Source: Kineosporia sp. NBRC 101731 (GTDB lineage: Bacteria; Actinomycetota; Actinomycetes; Actinomycetales; Kineosporiaceae). Taken from it: a stretch of DNA of 64,000 bases. Shown here one piece after another: positions 1,882 through 64,000 of this stretch. The stretch covers positions 447,467 to 511,466 of the forward strand of contig NZ_BSTC01000001.1 in the NCBI RefSeq assembly GCF_030269305.1. The letters run 5' to 3'. The number at the start of each line of letters is the position of its first letter. The first letter of the stretch is position 1. Both the position numbers and the translations under genes were made by a program. The notes beneath the pieces were generated by a model. The model was not told the origin of the DNA and did not search any database. It saw only the letters and a list, made by a program, of their open reading frames with translations.

Positions 1882-1933
1882 GATGTGAAACTGGAACCGG
1901 GTGGTGGTCTTTCGATCACCACCCGGTCCGGGA

Positions 1934-2770
1934 TCACTGCAGCAGCTTGAGGATGCTCTGCGGCTGCTGGTTGGCCTGCGCCAGCATGGCGGTACCCGCC
2001 TGCGACAGGATCTGAGCCTGGGTGAAGAGCACCATCTCCGACGCCATGTCGGTGGCCTGGATACGCGCGTTGGAGGCGGTCAGGTTCTCCACCGACACGT
2101 TCAGGTTGTTCACCGTGTGCGTGAATCGGTTCTGGTAAGCACCCAGTGTCGCCCGGGTGGTGGACACGGTGTTCAGCGCGGTGTCGATGGCGTCGATCGC
2201 CGACTGCGCCGACGCCGTGTCGGCCAGGGACACCGTGCCGGTGTCCACGGCGAGACCAGCGGTGGTCATGGCCGTCCCGGTGAGGTCGGCCGTGATCCGG
2301 TCGTTCGCCGAGTTGTTGGCGCCGATCTGGAAGGTACCGGCGTAGGTGCCGTCCAGAAGGTTCTGGCCGTTGAAGTTGGTCGTGCCGGCGATCCGGTCGA
2401 TCTCAGCCTGGAGCTGGCTGAACTCCACCTGTGAGGCGGCCTGGGCGTTGGCGCCCTGAGAACCACCGGATGATGCCTGAACGGCCAGGCTTCGCATGCG
2501 CTGCAGGATGACCTGCGTCTCGTTCAACGCACCGTCAGCGGTCTGGACGACGCTGATGGCATCCTGAGCATTACGGACAGCGACGCTCAGGCCGCCGATC
2601 TGCGCCTGCAGCCCCTGAGAGATCGCCAGGCCGGCCGCGTCGTCAGCCGCACGGTTAATGCGGTAACCACTGGACAGCTTCTCGAGGGAGCTGGTCTGGC
2701 TGGTCTGGGTGTTGTTCAGGTTGCGGTAGGCGTTGAGAGCGGCCGCGTTGCTGGTCACGTAGAGACCCAT
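1934..2770 (-). CDS. fliC: Flagellin
   Basis: Structural subunit of the flagellar filament, exported through the flagellar type III apparatus. The protein is 278 aa. The conserved D0/D1 N-terminus (residues 1-140) includes the TSNAAALNAYRNL start and the motif INRAADDAAGLAIS. The C-terminus (about 190-278) has NRFTHTVNNLNVSVENL and SDMASEM-like residues, and the protein ends in LLQ. The variable middle is short, so this is a minimal flagellin. The open frame extends 27 codons further upstream, but the ATG at 2770 is preceded by a perfect AAGGAGGA box and gives the canonical flagellin N-terminus. A sigma-28-like promoter and a GGA-rich leader lie upstream. Confidence 0.96.
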   Translation of the reverse strand: MGLYVTSNAAALNAYRNLNNTQTSQTSSLEKLSSGYRINRAADDAAGLAISQGLQAQIGGLSVAVRNAQDAISVVQTADGALNETQVILQRMRSLAVQASSGGSQGANAQAASQVEFSQLQAEIDRIAGTTNFNGQNLLDGTYAGTFQIGANNSANDRITADLTGTAMTTAGLAVDTGTVSLADTASAQSAIDAIDTALNTVSTTRATLGAYQNRFTHTVNNLNVSVENLTASNARIQATDMASEMVLFTQAQILSQAGTAMLAQANQQPQSILKLLQ

Positions 2771-2820
2771 GATGTCCTCCTTGGTCGGGTCGAATTCCGA
2801 TCCATCCGTGGACCGGGACA
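2771..2820 (-). promoter_or_regulatory. fliC leader with five GGA motifs (candidate CsrA-binding region)
   Basis: The roughly 50-nt untranslated leader contains GGA triplets at 2807-2805, 2803-2801, 2798-2796, 2780-2778 and 2777-2775. The last two form the Shine-Dalgarno sequence. CsrA dimers recognise GGA in loops, and in Bacillus one site overlaps the flagellin ribosome binding site. With csrA and fliW in the same locus this leader is a plausible target. Binding itself is inferred. Confidence 0.45.
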
Positions 2821-2826
2821 GCATCC

Positions 2827-2854
2827 TCATCGGCTGGAATGCTGCGGTCATGAA
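2827..2854 (-). promoter_or_regulatory. Sigma-28 (FliA)-type promoter of fliC
   Basis: On the minus strand, TTCA (2854-2851), a 16-base spacer and GCCGATGA (2834-2827) match the sigma-28 pattern (short -35, about 15-17 bases, then GCCGAT-like -10). The box lies 57 bases upstream of the fliC ATG. The same arrangement is found before flgN. Confidence 0.65.
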
Positions 2855-2859
2855 GGTTT

Positions 2860-2877
2860 CCGGCGAGTTTTCGCCGG
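2860..2877 (-). terminator. Hairpin at the end of the sigma-28 gene
   Basis: Arms CCGGCGA (2860-2866) and TCGCCGG (2871-2877) with a GTTT loop sit immediately after the sigma-factor stop codon, upstream of the fliC promoter. This is a short, stable GC hairpin without a clear T-run. It probably separates the sigma-factor transcript from fliC. Confidence 0.5.
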
Positions 2878-2880
2878 GAA

Positions 2881-3795
2881 CTACAACCGGGCGTCGACGT
2901 CCGAGGCGGACGAGAGGTATCGGCCGACGTCCACCCGGCTGCTGAGCGTGGAGCGCCGCGCGACCGCGTCCACATAGGCGTCCCGACGCCGTCCACGCGC
3001 TCCCTGGGTCGGCTGGCCAACAGCGCCCGCGCCGGCCTTGGCATCGGCCTCGAGCAGTCGGGACAAGGCCTCCCGCAGGAGTTCCAGCCCTTCCGCCCGC
3101 AGTTGCGACACCCGTGACTGGGTCACGTTCAGCTCGGTCGCGAGTTCGGTGAGCGGCCGGCCCTCCAGGTAGTACCCACTGACCACCAGACGCAGGCGGT
3201 CGGGCAGCTCGGCGATCGCGTCCCGGAGATAGCCCACCCGTTCCGCCGCGACCAGAGCGTCTTCCGGCTGCGGGGCCGGATCGCGCAGGGTCGCGGCCAG
3301 GCCCTCCCCCTCGGGGGTGAAGGAATCGAGGGAGAGCAGGGAGGCGCGGTCCTGGCCACCGCGGATCTCACCGATCTCGCTCTCGGTCAGGCCCGATGCG
3401 GCGGCGAGTTCGCTGTCCACCGGTGTGCGCCCGAGCGCCACGGTGAGTGCCTCGGACGTGACCGCCAGGGCCCGGGCCCGGCTGCGCAGCGAACGTGTCG
3501 CCCAGTCGCGCTGGCGCATCTGATCGATCATTGCCCCGCGGATGCGCGTGTTCGCGAACCGGGCGAACGGCACACCCAGGCTGGGATCGAACGATTGCGC
3601 CGCCTGAACCAGGGCGAGCGCACCGGCACCGGTGAGGTCGTCAGAGTCCAGGTGCCGCGGGAGGCGGGAAGAGGTCTCCCGGGCGATGTAACCCACCAGG
3701 GGCAGGTGCTCCCGGACCAGCGCCTCCACCTCGGCCGCCGAACGGGGGGAGGCGGACTTCCCGGACGTCTGGGGGGAGTTCAGAAGATCGGCCAC
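2881..3795 (-). CDS. fliA: RNA polymerase sigma factor, FliA/WhiG (sigma-28) family
   Basis: Directs RNA polymerase to late flagellar (or, in the WhiG branch, sporulation) promoters. Region 2 (about residues 25-95) has HLPLVGYIARE, the -10-recognition segment around FDPSLGVPFARFANTRIRGAM, and DQMRQRDW, all diagnostic of the sigma-28 group. Region 3 follows at about 105-170 (LGRTPVDSELAAASGL) and region 4 at about 190-245 (LNVTQSRVSQL). A tail of about 55 residues extends past region 4. The open frame reaches far upstream, but that part lacks sigma-factor character. The GTG at 3795 gives 304 aa and is the best guess; no strong Shine-Dalgarno supports it, so the start is uncertain. Position beside fliC and the divergent flgN operon favours a flagellar role. 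Confidence 0.88.
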   Translation of the reverse strand: MADLLNSPQTSGKSASPRSAAEVEALVREHLPLVGYIARETSSRLPRHLDSDDLTGAGALALVQAAQSFDPSLGVPFARFANTRIRGAMIDQMRQRDWATRSLRSRARALAVTSEALTVALGRTPVDSELAAASGLTESEIGEIRGGQDRASLLSLDSFTPEGEGLAATLRDPAPQPEDALVAAERVGYLRDAIAELPDRLRLVVSGYYLEGRPLTELATELNVTQSRVSQLRAEGLELLREALSRLLEADAKAGAGAVGQPTQGARGRRRDAYVDAVARRSTLSSRVDVGRYLSSASDVDARL

Positions 3796-17049: not shown

Positions 17050-17807
17050 GGACGTTCCCCCTTGCACGCTGTTGCTCACCCCCGAGCAGAATCAGGCTAA
17101 GCAGGGATCGGGCCGCCCGGAGCCCAAACGGTGAAATTGCCCCAAAGCCCCTCCTTGAACCGATCGTGATCGGCCGGGCGACGGTCAGCCACCGAGGGCA
17201 GAAGACGGGCGCCGGATCAGATCGGCACGGGTGGACGCCGGTCACGCGGTCAGGCGGTCAGCACCGGTGGGTCCCGCATTTCCTGAGGGCTGTGGACAAC
17301 GTGGGGAAGTTCCGGACCCGCCGGTACGGCAGCCCCTGGGGATTCTGCGAAATCCGGTGTGGGTATTCGCGAAATCTCAACGAAAGAGCGGTATTTCGAT
17401 GTCATCGATGAAGCTGGCATTGTCCCCAGCCTGTGCAGAAACCTGTGGATAAGGAACTACAAGAATGAACGCGACAGTGCCCGGCAGGCATGCCGAACGG
17501 GTCCAGACTGGGCCAGGAGCCCAGGATCTGGGGCGTCGGTGGATAACTGGACCCTTTCCGGAAATTTTCGTCGCCCGCGGTTTTCATCGGTGTAACCGGA
17601 AAGACGTTGTGCGGAAACGTCGCTGCCTCTGGAACCGAGCCGCCCGCGGTCGCCGTTGTCCCATGCGGTGGCCACGAACGTTCGCCGGCACTCACTGGTT
17701 CGTGGTCATGTAATCCCCCGCCTTCGGCCGGGAGGTGCCCCCAATTCCCCGGGAAGTGGGGCATGATCACGAACGGGAGGATGGCCACCGCACTAGCCTG
17801 GGCACCC
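17050..17807. other. Long intergenic region with DnaA-box-like sites and a palindromic element
   Basis: About 750 bp without a credible gene. The distal half is less GC-rich than its surroundings. It contains TGTGGACAA (17291-17299), TGTGGATAA (17444-17452), GGTGGATAA (17538-17546), a near-match TTGTCCCCA on the other strand (17420-17428), and a pair of ATTC-GCGAAATC direct repeats near 17342 and 17364. At its right end is the structured element at 17698-17774. Short open frames here look like chance. Confidence 0.5.
17698..17774. repeat. Structured palindromic repeat element, copy 1 (77 bp)
   Basis: Terminal arms GTTCGTGGTCATG (17698-17710) and CATGATCACGAAC (17762-17774) are complementary apart from one base. 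The interior folds further: a CCGCC-TTCG-GGCGG-like hairpin and a CCCCAATTCC/GGAAGTGGGG stem, giving a branched structure. The outer arm matches the arms of the perfect palindrome at 31517-31564. It lies directly upstream of the antiporter gene. Confidence 0.6.
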
Positions 17808-28006: not shown

Positions 28007-28079
28007 GCGCCCGTAGCTCAACGGATAGAGCATCTGACTACGGATCAGAAGGTTAGGGGTTCGAATCCCTTCGGGCGCA
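28007..28079 (+). tRNA. tRNA-Arg (anticodon ACG)
   Basis: 73 bases folding as a full cloverleaf. The acceptor stem is GCGCCCG (28007-28013) with CGGGCGC (28072-28078) and discriminator A. The D arm is GTAGCTCAACGGATAGAGC. The anticodon stem TCTGA/TCAGA encloses CTACGGA (anticodon ACG). The T arm is AGGGGTTCGAATCCCT. No CCA is encoded. It reads CGU/CGC/CGA after A34 deamination. Confidence 0.97.
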
Positions 28080-30536: not shown

Positions 30537-31505
30537 ATGAAAGCCGCTGTGTACTACGAGAACGGGGGCCCCGAGGTCCTGCGTTACGAAGACGTCCCGG
30601 ACCCCACCCCCACCCCGGACGGGGTGCTGCTGCGGGTCGAGGCCGTGGGTGTGCAGGGCGGTGACCTGCTGCACCGGCAGCTGAGCCCGCTGCCGGCCAC
30701 CCCGCACGTCGGGGGTTACCAGGCCGCGGGCACCATCATCGCCGTCGGATCGGAGGTGACCACCGTGAAGGAAGGCCAGAAGGCCGTCGCCATGGTCAAT
30801 TCCGGCTCCCACGCCGAGCTGGTCGCGACGTCGGCGGGCAACGTCTTCATCGTGCCCGACGACATGGACCCGAAGATCGCCTCGGCCATCCCGGTCGAGT
30901 TCGCCACCGCCGACGACTGCCTCTTCGGCGTCGGCCGGCTGCAGGCCGGGGAGACCGTGCTGATCCAGGCCGCCGGCAGCGGCGTGGGCCTGGCCGCCGT
31001 GCAGCTGGCCAAGGCGGCCGGAGCCGCGGTCATCGGGACGGCCGGCAGCGACGACAAGCTGGCGCGCCTGAAGGAGTACGGCCTCGACCACGGCATCAAC
31101 TACCGTACGGACGACGTGGTCGCGAAGATCAAGAGTCTCACCGACGGTCGTGGTGTCGACCTGGTGCTCGACCCGGTCGGCGGCCGCACCCTCGAGATCA
31201 GTGTCGCCTCCCTGGCCTTCCGCGGGCGGATCAGCTGGATCGGCAACGTGGCTCGCGACCCGGAACGGCCCCGGCTGGACGGCCTGATGGCCAAGAACGC
31301 CACACTCAACGGCGTTTTCCTGGGCGGGGCAAGGCCGTTCGAGGCTGAGCGGGTGCGCGGCGTGATCGAGCGCCTGATCGCCCGGATCGCCGCGGGTGAG
31401 CTGAAAGTCGTTCTGGACCGTACGTTCGCGCTGTCCGAGGCAGCCGAGGCCCACCGCTACATCGAGAGCCGGGCCTCCTTCGGCCGGGTGACCCTCGTTC
31501 CCTAG
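30537..31505 (+). CDS. Zinc-independent medium-chain dehydrogenase/reductase (quinone oxidoreductase type)
   Basis: A 322-aa NAD(P)H-dependent reductase of the QOR branch of the MDR superfamily. The N-terminal GroES-like domain (1-125) ends with TSAGNVFIVPD. The Rossmann domain has AAGSGVGLAAVQLAKAAGAAV (about 143-163), the NADPH-preferring Gly-rich loop, then ITDGRGVDLVLDPVGG-like residues and GRISWIGNVA. No catalytic-zinc Cys/His set is seen. AAAGGAACC lies upstream of the ATG. It is the second gene of the TetR-controlled operon and ends 11 bases before the perfect palindrome. Substrate is probably a quinone or enone. Confidence 0.9.
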   Translation: MKAAVYYENGGPEVLRYEDVPDPTPTPDGVLLRVEAVGVQGGDLLHRQLSPLPATPHVGGYQAAGTIIAVGSEVTTVKEGQKAVAMVNSGSHAELVATSAGNVFIVPDDMDPKIASAIPVEFATADDCLFGVGRLQAGETVLIQAAGSGVGLAAVQLAKAAGAAVIGTAGSDDKLARLKEYGLDHGINYRTDDVVAKIKSLTDGRGVDLVLDPVGGRTLEISVASLAFRGRISWIGNVARDPERPRLDGLMAKNATLNGVFLGGARPFEAERVRGVIERLIARIAAGELKVVLDRTFALSEAAEAHRYIESRASFGRVTLVP

Positions 31506-31516
31506 GCACCTTCTTG

Positions 31517-31564
31517 TTCGTGATCATGCAGAACCTCCCCGGGGAGGTTCTGCATGATCACGAA
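31517..31564. repeat. Perfect 48-bp palindrome; repeat element copy 2 and probable terminator
   Basis: Two perfectly complementary 24-base arms meet at 31540/31541 with no spacer; each arm reads TTCGTGATCATGC then AGAACCTCCCC from the outside. It lies 11 bases past the MDR stop and would form a very stable hairpin in RNA or a cruciform in DNA. The outer arm is shared with the elements at 17698 and 46729, the inner half with 63730. Confidence 0.85.
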
Positions 31565-31584
31565 TGTGAAGAAGGGGCAGGCGC

Positions 31585-31744
31585 TCAGAAGGCGACGAAA
31601 ATCCCCAGAATCACCATGAAGAGCCCAGCCACAGCTGGAATGCGCCCGGCGGCCCCGGCTGCCTGGGCGGCGGCGCCGAGGAGAAGGAACACCACTCCGC
31701 CCCCGATCGTGTGTGAACCGAATACCCTTCGTGTACGTACGCAT
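31585..31744 (-). pseudogene. Possible remnant of a small hydrophobic membrane protein
   Basis: On the minus strand a hydrophobic frame ends at 31585 (IGGGVVFLLLGAAAQAAG, then PAVAGLFMVILGIFVAF), looking like two membrane helices. It lacks a usable start in that frame: the nearest ATG (31744) is in another frame, and a single-base shift near 31709 would join them. Either a GTG inside the first helix is used or the gene is broken. Confidence 0.3.
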
Positions 31745-31775
31745 TCCGGTGCCGAAGGAGGTGGATGGGCCGGGC

Positions 31776-31804
31776 TTGACCCGAATTCCAGTTGCGCTTA
31801 AGAC
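31776..31804 (+). promoter_or_regulatory. Promoter of the chitosanase gene
   Basis: TTGACC (31776-31781), 17 bases, TAAGAC (31799-31804), a good sigma-70/HrdB-type promoter, 54 bases upstream of the start. The motif CCAGTTGCGCTTAAG (31788-31802) overlaps it and recurs at 32823-32837 before the next gene. Confidence 0.6.
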
Positions 31805-31857
31805 GGCCGCCCCTAGCGTGCTGGCCCGTCAGACCCATCCGAAGAGAAGGGCCAAGC

Positions 31858-32757
31858 ATGCTCACCCTGAGAGCAAAGGCCGGAGTCCTGCTGGTCGGTG
31901 GTGTCGCCGCGACGGCGCTCGCCGCCGGCATCACGACCGCCGTGGTGTCACCCGCCCAGGCGACGCCCGCGGCCAAGCACCGTCCCCGGCCAACGGCCAG
32001 TGCCACAGCCACGGCCACAGCCACAGCGACAACTCAAGCGGCCCAGGACCTGGACTCGGCGGCGAAGAAGGAGATCGCGATGCAGCTGGTCTCCAGCGCC
32101 GAGAACTCCTCGCTGGACTGGAAGGCGCAGTACGGGTACATCGAGGACATCGACGACGGCCGCGGCTACACCGGCGGCATCATCGGGTTCACCTCGGGCA
32201 CGCACGACATGCTCGAACTGGTCGAGCAGTACACCGCCGATCACCCGGTCAACGGCCTGGCGAAGTACCTGCCGGCGCTGCGCGCGGTGGACGGTACCGA
32301 CTCGCACACCGGTCTCGGTAGTGGCTTCGTCACCGCCTGGACGGCGGAGGCCCAGGTCGTGGCCTTCCAGGAGGCCCAGAACAGTGAGCGGGACCGGGTC
32401 TACTTCGACCCGGCCGTGGCACAGGCCACGAAGGACGGCCTGCGGGCACTGGGTCAGTTCGCCTACTACGACGCCATGGTCATGCACGGCCCGGGCGACG
32501 ATGCGGTGAGCTTCGGCGGCATCCGGGCCACCGCCCTGGAGAAGGCCAGGACCCCCGCCGCCGGTGGCGACGAAACCGCTTATCTAAATGCGTTTCTCGA
32601 TGCCCGTAAGGCGGCGATGCAGACGGAGGAGGCGCACTCCGAAACCGGCCGCGTCGACACCATGCAGCGCAAGTTTCTGATCGAGGGCAACCTGGACCTC
32701 GATCCGCCGTTGCGGTGGACGGTGTACGAGGGCGACCCCACGTACGAGATTCTCTGA
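31858..32757 (+). CDS. csn: Secreted GH46 chitosanase
   Basis: Hydrolyses beta-1,4 bonds in chitosan outside the cell. The 299-aa precursor has a signal peptide (1-36, ending AQA-T) and a short Thr/Ala-rich linker (about 45-62). The GH46 catalytic domain follows, closely resembling the Streptomyces N174 enzyme. Catalytic acid Glu82 lies in VSSAENSSLDWKAQYGYIED and the catalytic Asp is about residue 100 in DIDDGRGYTGGIIGF. Further conserved blocks are LGQFAYYDAMVMHGPG and FGGIRATALEKARTPA. The ATG at 31858 is set by the signal peptide and by GAAGAGAAGG 9-18 bases upstream. A consensus promoter precedes it and a hairpin follows. Confidence 0.95.
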   Translation: MLTLRAKAGVLLVGGVAATALAAGITTAVVSPAQATPAAKHRPRPTASATATATATATTQAAQDLDSAAKKEIAMQLVSSAENSSLDWKAQYGYIEDIDDGRGYTGGIIGFTSGTHDMLELVEQYTADHPVNGLAKYLPALRAVDGTDSHTGLGSGFVTAWTAEAQVVAFQEAQNSERDRVYFDPAVAQATKDGLRALGQFAYYDAMVMHGPGDDAVSFGGIRATALEKARTPAAGGDETAYLNAFLDARKAAMQTEEAHSETGRVDTMQRKFLIEGNLDLDPPLRWTVYEGDPTYEIL

Positions 32758-34336: not shown

Positions 34337-34380
34337 AAAGCGCTCTCCCAGCCGTCCGCCCGCGGCTGGGAGAGCGCTTT
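34337..34380. terminator. Strong bidirectional hairpin terminator
   Basis: Perfect 18-bp arms (34337-34354 and 34363-34380, AAAGCGCTCTCCCAGCCG and complement) with an 8-base loop and A/T flanks. It lies between the secreted-protein gene and convergent terC. Confidence 0.9.
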
Positions 34381-41850: not shown

Positions 41851-41889
41851 ACGGAAGTGGTCTGCCACCAGGTGGCAGACCACTTCCGT
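41851..41889 (-). terminator. Hairpin terminator after ilvD
   Basis: Nearly perfect palindrome: 19-base arms 41851-41869 and 41871-41889 around a single A, 18 bases beyond the ilvD stop; in RNA it would fold with a small loop. Confidence 0.85.
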
Positions 41890-46635: not shown

Positions 46636-46728
46636 GGATGCAGGCCTTTCGTCGGATGCCGACAGTTCCCGGTCAGACTAGTGCGGCGACCCGGTGCGGC
46701 GACCAGGAAAACCGGCCGCTTTCACTTC

Positions 46729-46739
46729 CGTGATCATGC
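46729..46739. repeat. Half copy of the palindromic repeat (CGTGATCATGC)
   Basis: CGTGATCATGC at the very 3' end of the marR gene matches the outer arm of the palindromes at 17698 and 31517. No complementary arm is seen nearby, so this is a solo arm or chance. Confidence 0.35.
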
Positions 46740-61925: not shown

Positions 61926-61991
61926 AGGGTGGCACGGGTCCTGCCGGAAGTCCTAGGCCTCACAGAAACCACTCAGTAGGTGTACCGTCAC

Positions 61992-62088
61992 AAGCGCGAC
62001 AGGGGAGCGCCAACAGGGCGCTGAGAGTGCAGGCAACTGCAGACCCTCGAACCTGATCCGGGTCATGCCGGCGAAGGGAGTCGAGCTT
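61992..62088 (+). promoter_or_regulatory. TPP riboswitch (THI element)
   Basis: A complete thi-box aptamer. P1 pairs AAGC-G-CGAC (61992-62000) with GTCG-A-GCTT (62080-62088). The pyrimidine-sensor motif CTGAGA is at 62021-62026, with GTGCAGGCAACTGCAGACCC forming the P3 arm side. The pyrophosphate-sensor arm is ACCTGATCCGGGTCATGCCG (62051-62070) followed by GCGAAGGGAG. It senses thiamine pyrophosphate and should repress the downstream ykoED transporter. Confidence 0.96.
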
Positions 62089-62116
62089 CTCGGTCATGGC
62101 CGAGCTGTGTGCCTTC

Positions 62117-62162
62117 GTCTTCGGAGGGGCGCGGCGGCGGGTCACGGCACCCCTCCGAAGAC
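62117..62162 (+). terminator. Expression-platform hairpin of the TPP riboswitch
   Basis: 13-bp arms GTCTTCGGAGGGG (62117-62129) and CCCCTCCGAAGAC (62150-62162) around a 20-base loop, 28 bases after the aptamer and immediately before the ykoE ribosome site GGAGGAG. This suggests transcription termination or access control of that site on TPP binding. Confidence 0.75.
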
Positions 62163-62177
62163 GGAGGAGCAACACCC

Positions 62178-62939: not shown

Positions 62940-64000
62940 GGCCCGCCCTCCGCTGATCGAGGCGCGGGGCTGGGGCTGGCGGCACTCCACCCGCAAGGCC
63001 TGGGCGGTGCAGGGGCTCGACCTGCGGGTCGAGCCCGGCGAGCGGGTGCTGCTGCTCGGTGCCAGCGGGGCCGGTAAGTCCACCCTGCTCGCGGGTCTGG
63101 CCGGGCTGCTCGACCCGGAGGAGACCGGAGGGGACGAGGAGGGGGCCCTGCTGCTGGACGGCGTGCAGGCCCGTCGGGCGCGGCAGGAAGCCGTGCAGGA
63201 CGGGCAGGCTCTCACCGGCCTGCTGCTGCAGGACCCGCAGGCCCAGACGGTACTGGCCCGGTGCGGTGACGACGTGGCCTTCGGGCTGGAGAACCACGCC
63301 GTGTCCGACATCTGGCCCCGGGTGCGGAAAGCCCTGGAAGGCGTGGGGTTTCCCTATGATCTGGCCCATCCGACCGGAAGGCTGTCCGGTGGGGAACGGC
63401 AACGGCTCGCCCTGGCCGGGGTGCTCGCGCTCGATCCGGGCCTGCTGCTGCTCGACGAACCCACCGCCATGCTCGACCCGGAGGGCGCCGACCTGGTGCG
63501 CCGCACGATCGCGACTGTGCTGGAACTGACCGGTGCGGGCTGCATTCTCGTTGAGCACCGGGTGCAGCCGTGGCTACCGTTCATCGATCGGGTCGTGGTG
63601 CTGGAACCCGGCGGTGGCGTGTACGCGGACGGACCGCCGGATCAGGTCTTCGACGAGCAGGCTTCGTCGCTGGTCGCGGCGGGTGTGTGGGTGCCTGGAG
63701 GGCGTCCGGAATGGAGGACGCGGGTGAGCGGGGAGGTTCTGCACGACCACGAACGGGGTTTGCCACTGCTCACGGCGGAGAAGCTGGCGGCTCGCCGACC
63801 GGGTCAGGCCGAGCCTCCGGTGCGGGACGTCGACCTGACGGTCCGGGCCGGGCGGGCGCTCGCCGTGACCGGGCCCAACGGGGCCGGGAAGTCGACCCTG
63901 GCGTTGGCCCTGGCGGGCCTGACCGCTCCCGCGGCCGGCGACCTCACGGCCTCCGAACGGCTTGCGAAGGGTCTCGGCCCGCACCCGCACGCCTGGAAGG
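62932..64000 (+). CDS. ykoD: ECF transporter duplicated ATPase (YkoD), cut by window edge
   Basis: Energy-coupling ATPase with two ABC domains in one chain, as in YkoD of the thiamine-precursor transporter. Domain 1 has Walker A GASGAGKST (about 44-52), signature LSGGERQRLALAG (about 150) and Walker B LLLLDEPTAMLDPEG (about 170-184), ending with LVEHR. Domain 2 starts near residue 280 with Walker A GPNGAGKST at about 314-322. The window stops at codon 356, so the rest of domain 2 is missing. GTG 62932 overlaps the end of ykoE. The linker between the domains includes a DNA stretch matching half of the palindromic repeat. Confidence 0.93.
   Translation, partial: MSEARPPLIEARGWGWRHSTRKAWAVQGLDLRVEPGERVLLLGASGAGKSTLLAGLAGLLDPEETGGDEEGALLLDGVQARRARQEAVQDGQALTGLLLQDPQAQTVLARCGDDVAFGLENHAVSDIWPRVRKALEGVGFPYDLAHPTGRLSGGERQRLALAGVLALDPGLLLLDEPTAMLDPEGADLVRRTIATVLELTGAGCILVEHRVQPWLPFIDRVVVLEPGGGVYADGPPDQVFDEQASSLVAAGVWVPGGRPEWRTRVSGEVLHDHERGLPLLTAEKLAARRPGQAEPPVRDVDLTVRAGRALAVTGPNGAGKSTLALALAGLTAPAAGDLTASERLAKGLGPHPHAWK
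63730..63754. repeat. Half copy of the palindromic repeat inside ykoD
   Basis: 25 bases starting GGGGAGGTTCTGCA and ending CACGAAC match one complete arm of the palindrome at 31517-31564 with two to three differences. In frame they encode GEVLHDHER in the linker between the two ABC domains. No complementary arm follows. Confidence 0.5.

Follow-up and report, generated by a model that had tools for sequence, protein, structure and literature searches.

A dispersed palindromic repeat in Kineosporia and its association with a gene for a predicted AbiEi-like/Vsr-like nuclease in actinobacteria

A perfect 48-bp palindrome in the genome of Kineosporia sp. NBRC 101731 is one of hundreds of scattered copies of a palindromic repeat, and in many actinobacteria repeats of this kind flank, and vary together with, a gene encoding a protein in which an AbiEi-like module is joined to a predicted Vsr/EDxHD-type nuclease domain. 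We infer that this protein may be what spreads the repeats, perhaps by cut-and-copy, although neither cleavage nor causation has been observed. In openly licensed literature, as far as listings and abstracts show, we found no paper that links AbiEi/DUF559/Vsr-type proteins to dispersed palindromes.

Results

The palindrome and its copies in the window

The stretch analyzed, referred to here as the window, is 64,000 nucleotides long. Positions 31517-31540 and 31541-31564 are perfectly complementary with no spacer. The pair extends to 31-nt arms at 90% complementarity and is the longest inverted repeat listed in the window, in a search that allowed arms up to 60 bases apart. The 72-nt region folds as DNA at -32.4 kcal/mol (z = -10.9), with 0 of 200 shuffles as good. 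The features relevant to this family are as follows.

30537..31505 (+), upstream gene (called ORF); the palindrome starts 12 bases after its last base
31510..31571 (strand not assigned), imperfect outer extension of the hairpin, 31-nt arms, 90% complementary
31517..31564 (strand not assigned), 48-bp perfect palindrome, a gene-less copy of the arm family (arm TTCGTGATCATGC, short interior AGAACCTCCCC/GGGGAGGTTCT)
17699..17773 (strand not assigned), second member of the family, 75 bp, with the CCTTCGGCCGGGAGGTGCCCCCA interior
46726..46739 (+), solitary arm (TTCCGTGATCATGC), probably a decayed copy by inference
63732..63753 (-), half-element-like match, 2 mismatches to the 22-nt arm, inside a called coding gene; doubtful member

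A sequence-only reading had proposed that the palindrome belongs to a dispersed repeat family, REP/BIME- or MITE-like, rather than being a one-off terminator, and had named three other places in the window where parts of it recur. Of these, 17698-17774 holds a true member. The arm at 46726-46739 has no partner that we could find and lies at the end of a called minus-strand gene, while the match at 63732-63753 lies inside the called gene 62932-64452 and is possibly a palindrome half absorbed into a gene. Searching the window for TTCGTGATCATGCAGA with up to 3 mismatches gives 6 matches, against a shuffle mean of 0.30. Other perfect inverted repeats in the window, at 41851-41889 (19-nt arms with 1 nt between) and 34337-34380 (18-nt arms with 8 nt between), are of unrelated sequence. 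An Rfam search found no match above gathering scores at the palindrome, and we take sub-threshold microRNA hits to be chance matches to a long hairpin. The same search found a TPP riboswitch and a tRNA above gathering scores at 61991-62096 and 28007-28079, and an imperfect 21-nt inverted repeat at 62112-62167 lies just behind the riboswitch.

A dispersed, largely intergenic repeat family

The 22-nt arm occurs 250 times with up to 3 mismatches in the 8.26-Mb genome (designated G000), with 0 matches for the pattern read backwards. In a search of 98 genomes including G000, with up to 2 mismatches, four have a match: G000 with 179, G002 with 220, the congener G004 with 1, and G075 with 2. G002 is Kineosporia mesophila JCM 16902 by match, since a scan of named genomes returned the same gene on a contig of the same length. 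The four other congeners have 0, 0, 0 and 1 matches. The 13-mer TTCGTGATCAKGC occurs 257 times in G000 and 234 in G002, against 0-4 in the four other congeners. The sequence-only reading is therefore supported in that the family is dispersed and intergenic with variable interiors, and the palindrome is not a lone terminator.

In 1.6 Mb of G000 we counted 57 non-overlapping palindromes, and in 0.8 Mb of G002 we counted 25, one of which, a 118-bp row, is a chance pairing at the nuclease locus. Apart from that row, lengths are 47-116 bp, with several interiors (CCTCCCC, GTGTCCCC, CTTCCCC and CCTTCGGCCGGGAGGTGCCCCCA types). An 87-bp type has two GTTCTAGAAC palindromes around a ~9-nt centre that differs between copies. 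At four sites with this centre shared by both species, the centre is similar at three (1430737, 1536270, 1538515) and different at one (1406633).

Of the 57 copies in G000, 55 are intergenic although 84% of the sequence is called coding. Of these, 23 lie between convergent genes (16% expected), 24 between tandem genes (55%), and 8 between divergent genes (28%), and 21 of the 24 tandem copies are centred within 90 nt of the upstream stop. Of the 25 in G002, 10 are convergent, 11 tandem, 2 divergent, and 2 in a called gene. Gene calls came from a simple caller of our own. Inner-stem positions 14-22 pair better within a copy (0.820) than with swapped halves (mean 0.669, max 0.706 of 200), while positions 1-13, being nearly constant, do not differ (0.905 against 0.894). 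The outer flanks pair slightly better than swapped ones (-11.10 against a mean of -10.20, best -11.095 of 200). A T run of 5 or more within 14 nt follows only 5 of 82 copies, and no terminator was called at 31300-31900.

A gene bracketed by inverted arms

No Y1_Tnp/RAYT match (PF01797) was found in G000 or G002. The one Y1_Tnp match among the six congeners, at 303160-303417 of contig C23 of G005, is in a genome without hits to the 22-nt arm. Instead, comparison of G000 with G002 (mean 91% identity over about 190 kb) showed a 319-aa gene enclosed between two inverted half-elements in both species, but inverted between them, with both arms of another interior type in each. The protein matches AbiEi_4 and, below that model's curated cut-off, MTES_1575.

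We then searched MTES_1575 in 16 genomes. In genomes G186, G013, G229 and G173 a ~300-aa member is directly bracketed by forward arms upstream and inverted arms downstream, and in G168 it lies between a complete palindrome and an inverted arm. G016 and G034 followed, with 2-4 arms per side. In G000, G013, G016, G034, G186 and G168 the arms carry the interior seen in dispersed palindromes of that genome; in G229 they are a variant (CGTGATCTTGCA), and that genome has a single pattern palindrome. All 7 of the 7 genomes, out of 394 in the class, that contain CGTGATCAKGC...GCMTGATCACG palindromes thus have an arm-bracketed gene. G173 has one too without exact-pattern palindromes, though its arm differs from the pattern and begins GCTGATCATGCA. 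Of 30 MTES_1575 loci checked for this particular arm sequence, 5 were bracketed by it and 25 were not, and four paralogous loci (L255, L256, L257 and L258) have no inverted repeat above 14 nt. A second AbiEi/Vsr-type gene in G016 (locus L266, C2:729500-735000, at 1926-3035) is bracketed by a 33-bp inverted repeat of a quite different sequence, so one genome may hold two arm systems.

Among the six congeners only G000 and G002 have a close relative of the gene (E about 1e-107); the others reach 1e-16 to 1e-36. Across the class, the gene is found at E <= 1e-80 in 35 of 394 genomes, including 6 of the 7 palindrome genomes (Fisher 2e-6). The profile matches 211 of 394 genomes at E <= 1e-30, with five candidates scored per genome, and many genomes of one unnamed family show 4-5 matches each, so the gene family is multi-copy there; the wider protein family need not be arm-linked. 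Plasmids (5 partial matches in 72,556 records) and phages (1 in 50,697) hardly carry the gene at E ≤1e-5.

Survey of relatives and tests of arm dispersal

A scan of a genome collection returned the best 80 of 160 relatives, chosen by similarity. Exact inverted repeats between the two flanks of the gene were ≥12 nt in 65 of 80 and ≥14 nt in 51 of 80, compared with means of 5.2 (max 10) and 1.2 (max 4) for swapped flanks over 50 shuffles. Among neighbouring ORFs of the same contigs, repeats were ≥12 nt in 22 of 211, ≥14 nt in 4 of 211, and ≥18 nt in 1 of 211, the last against 29 of 80 for the gene itself. Excluding runs of N gave the same totals. However, 15 of 80 relatives show no repeat ≥12 nt. 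The set with repeats ≥14 nt includes eleven record-named genera: Kineosporia, Cellulomonas, Georgenia, Oceanitalea, Aeromicrobium, Mumia, Nocardioides, Marmoricola, Metallococcus, Miniimonas, and a record named Streptomyces sp. NP160. Arms differ between lineages. Among 83 proteins, pairs of loci that share an arm 9-mer have a mean protein identity of 0.492 against a permuted 0.371 (max 0.400), with 0 of 500 permutations as high. This test does not correct for shared ancestry of the flanks, since related organisms share both protein and flanking DNA.

We reasoned that if the arms at the gene define the dispersed family, arms read off the gene should be scattered through that genome only. Three of three tests passed, each searched in 10 genomes with up to 3 mismatches. 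Arms from Mumia sp. zg.B17 gave 52 hits, 7 of them at the gene, with 0-1 in the others; two Nocardioides genomes gave 235 and 182, with 0-3 in the others; Metallococcus carri gave 169, with 0 in the others. These counts include the copies at the gene itself, and reversed controls were 0-5. Copies form arrays with a fixed period (32 bp in Nocardioides, 21 bp in Mumia and Metallococcus), many of them facing. In one Nocardioides and in Metallococcus, facing arm arrays enclose intervals of roughly 0.7-1.6 kb away from the nuclease gene used as query (genome G471, C2:56951-58621; genome G472, C1:487958-488948 and C23:92318-93365), possibly paralogues or other cargo. Within the flanks of 37 named loci, arms recurred 12 times in 281 kb, with 0 for the control.

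The predicted protein

In 40 relatives, R146, T147, D150, E210, E254-Y-D-G, H261, D270 and R273 are invariant and D243 nearly so. Three PADLOC AbiEi models match 40 of 40, while MTES_1575 matches 35, AbiEi_4 22, AbiEi_1 17, and DUF559 16 of 40. An AlphaFold2 model of the K. mesophila protein, 92% identical to that of the window's genome, has pLDDT 92.1 and pTM 0.89. A Foldseek search with the whole model finds the S. agalactiae AbiEi 6y8q at E 1.2e-7 and Rv2827c at 6e-5. For the nuclease domain alone (pLDDT 93.3), rank 1 is a mitoribosome chain (probability 0.75), followed by the I-Bth0305I homing endonuclease domain (0.97, E 0.076) and Vsr (0.89, E 0.082). These E-values are weak, and the fold assignment rests on them together with the Pfam matches and conserved residues; the assignment of residues to the EDxHD motif is inferred.

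Turnover at orthologous sites

At the window locus, K. mesophila has the same outer arms in the same place, behind a gene end 95% identical over 705 bases, but a 76-bp element with another interior. Of 8 shared sites compared by eye, 3 have replaced interiors or arms (the window site, 1424837, and the nuclease locus with its inverted gene), a fourth (1467983) differs by several substitutions, and 4 keep their type (1406633, 1430737, 1536270, 1538515). Lineage-only copies were also seen. G000 copies at 1432350 and 1559780 on contig C1, each about 120 bp with flanks, are absent from G002, and these two sites show no clear target duplication; the direction, insertion or loss, is not known. G002 has lineage-only copies at 66537, in a wider region that differs, and at 154643, where G000 keeps a half copy.

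Converging unpaired arms 150-4000 bp apart number 2 in 1.6 Mb of G000 and 3 in 0.8 Mb of G002, of which one pair per genome is the nuclease gene. Of the others, G000 192131-194397 and G002 315196-316657 enclose long ORFs, and the arm at 194397 belongs to another hairpin, so they were not counted as cargo; a further pair is at G002 251749-252024. Two arms 1.5 kb apart at G000 C1:1322002-1323532 enclose one 459-aa ORF that, by our reading without a family search, resembles a thymidine phosphorylase, but each arm belongs to its own palindrome.

Discussion

We view the palindrome as a gene-less copy of a dispersed repeat whose defining part is the outer arm, here TTCGTGATCATGC. The arms, the palindromes, and the gene go together and vary together. 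We infer, with moderate confidence, that the AbiEi-like N-terminal two thirds of the protein bind the arm, as AbiEi is known to bind inverted repeats (PMC7319586), that the C-terminal Vsr/EDxHD-type domain cuts at or near arm palindromes, and that repair of the cut from another copy replaces interiors, inverts or inserts the nuclease gene, and adds arms. The repeats would then spread and turn over like homing elements and stay where they do least harm, at gene 3' ends. Interior replacement at fixed arms and gene inversion fit cut-and-copy better than simple transposition, but recombination between inverted arms alone could invert the gene, and no cleavage, binding or mobility was observed. A broader reading, which we consider about as likely as not, is that actinobacteria host a large class of genome-resident repeat systems, independent of transposases, in which such a protein drives the spread and continual rewriting of palindromic arms by homing-like conversion, each lineage having evolved its own arm code, with up to hundreds of copies per genome.

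Other explanations appear unlikely. The arms could be operator sites of an AbiEi-like regulator, with dispersed arms forming a regulon or silencing network and the nuclease domain a separate effector. AbiEi antitoxins autoregulate by binding inverted repeats in the promoter (PMC7319586), the arms lie directly upstream of the gene, often in arrays, and the PADLOC AbiEi models match all 40 relatives tested. However, arms bracket both ends of the gene, with downstream copies inverted, dispersed palindromes are under-represented between divergent genes and over-represented between convergent ones, and regulation alone does not explain replaced interiors and gene inversion. Still less probable is that the repeats are bidirectional terminators or mRNA 3'-stabilising hairpins, multiplied by ordinary duplication and kept by selection, with only a secondary link to the nuclease. 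The strong hairpins, the inner-stem pairing, and the enrichment between convergent genes and behind stops would fit, but T tracts are few, and the arm sequence is conserved beyond what a stem needs, occurs in genomes of other families of the class, and varies with the nuclease. Serving as a terminator after insertion is not excluded.

It is also doubtful that the repeats are MITEs or REPs moved by an undetected transposase, with the nuclease gene a passenger sitting in a palindrome. Inverted-repeat structure, dispersal, gene-less copies, presence/absence sites, and the additional intervals between facing arms, which would fit varied cargo, are in keeping with this view. Against it, no Y1_Tnp was found in G000 or K. 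mesophila, in a search that did not extend to other transposase families, relatives of the same gene occupy the interior in many genera with different arms, and passenger status would not predict covariation of arm and protein. Least likely, in our view, is a self-recognition system in which arms protect against or titrate a restriction-like nuclease and are selected as decoys or self-markers. The fusion of an AbiEi-like module to a nuclease domain and the very high arm numbers could suggest it, but there is no evidence of toxicity, and four congeners have neither the close gene nor more than one arm hit, so the system is dispensable.

Comparison with known systems

MITEs and IS-derived palindromes likewise have terminal inverted repeats and non-coding copies, but we found no parent IS in the stretches examined and no clear target-site duplication at the two presence/absence sites, so the MITE-like part of the sequence-only reading gained no support. 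CGTC-tagged REPs (PMC3733652) are also dispersed palindromic repeats; they are described as apparently lacking a dedicated transposase, and the word actinobacteria does not occur in that text.

EDxHD homing endonucleases (I-Bth0305I, PDB 3r3p; PMC3943268), the Vsr endonuclease (1vsr), and the MTES_1575 domain, described as having a Vsr REase fold (PMC3710099), share the predicted fold of the C-terminal domain and conserved E, D, H and D residues, whose match to the EDxHD motif is inferred. Here, though, a chromosomal gene lies inside a palindrome, the domain is fused to an AbiEi-like module, and there are hundreds of target-like copies per genome. The AbiEi antitoxin of the type IV toxin-antitoxin system AbiE (PDB 6y8q; Rv2827c, 1zel) matches the N-terminal two thirds by profile and fold. 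It differs in that our protein has a nuclease domain at the C-terminus and arms on both sides of its gene, and the neighbouring ORFs at the Kineosporia locus, read without a family search, do not resemble the toxin.

The closest parallel is with REP/BIME and REPIN elements and their RAYT (TnpA_REP) genes (PMC2817692, PMC3116915). In the papers we consulted, REP elements with a dedicated enzyme are tied to that one enzyme family. The same genomic logic recurs here with an unrelated nuclease in eleven record-named actinobacterial genera, which gives a function hypothesis to a common, little-understood actinobacterial protein family (AbiEi_4 / MTES_1575 / DUF559), explains hundreds of intergenic hairpins per genome that look like terminators, and makes the question of how short palindromes spread in bacterial genomes testable in a second, independent system with readable enzyme-site pairs. 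As with RAYTs, there are short, dispersed, species-specific extragenic palindromes and inverted doublets, a dedicated enzyme gene flanked by two inverted copies, covariation of enzyme and repeat, subject to the caveat on shared ancestry given above, and gene presence that goes with repeat number. The enzyme, however, is an AbiEi-like and Vsr/EDxHD-type nuclease rather than an HUH/Y1 tyrosine transposase, the hosts found here are actinobacteria, and the repeats are long perfect palindromes or facing arrays of ~20-nt arms. The designation REP-like therefore holds for the logic of the system, not for family membership.
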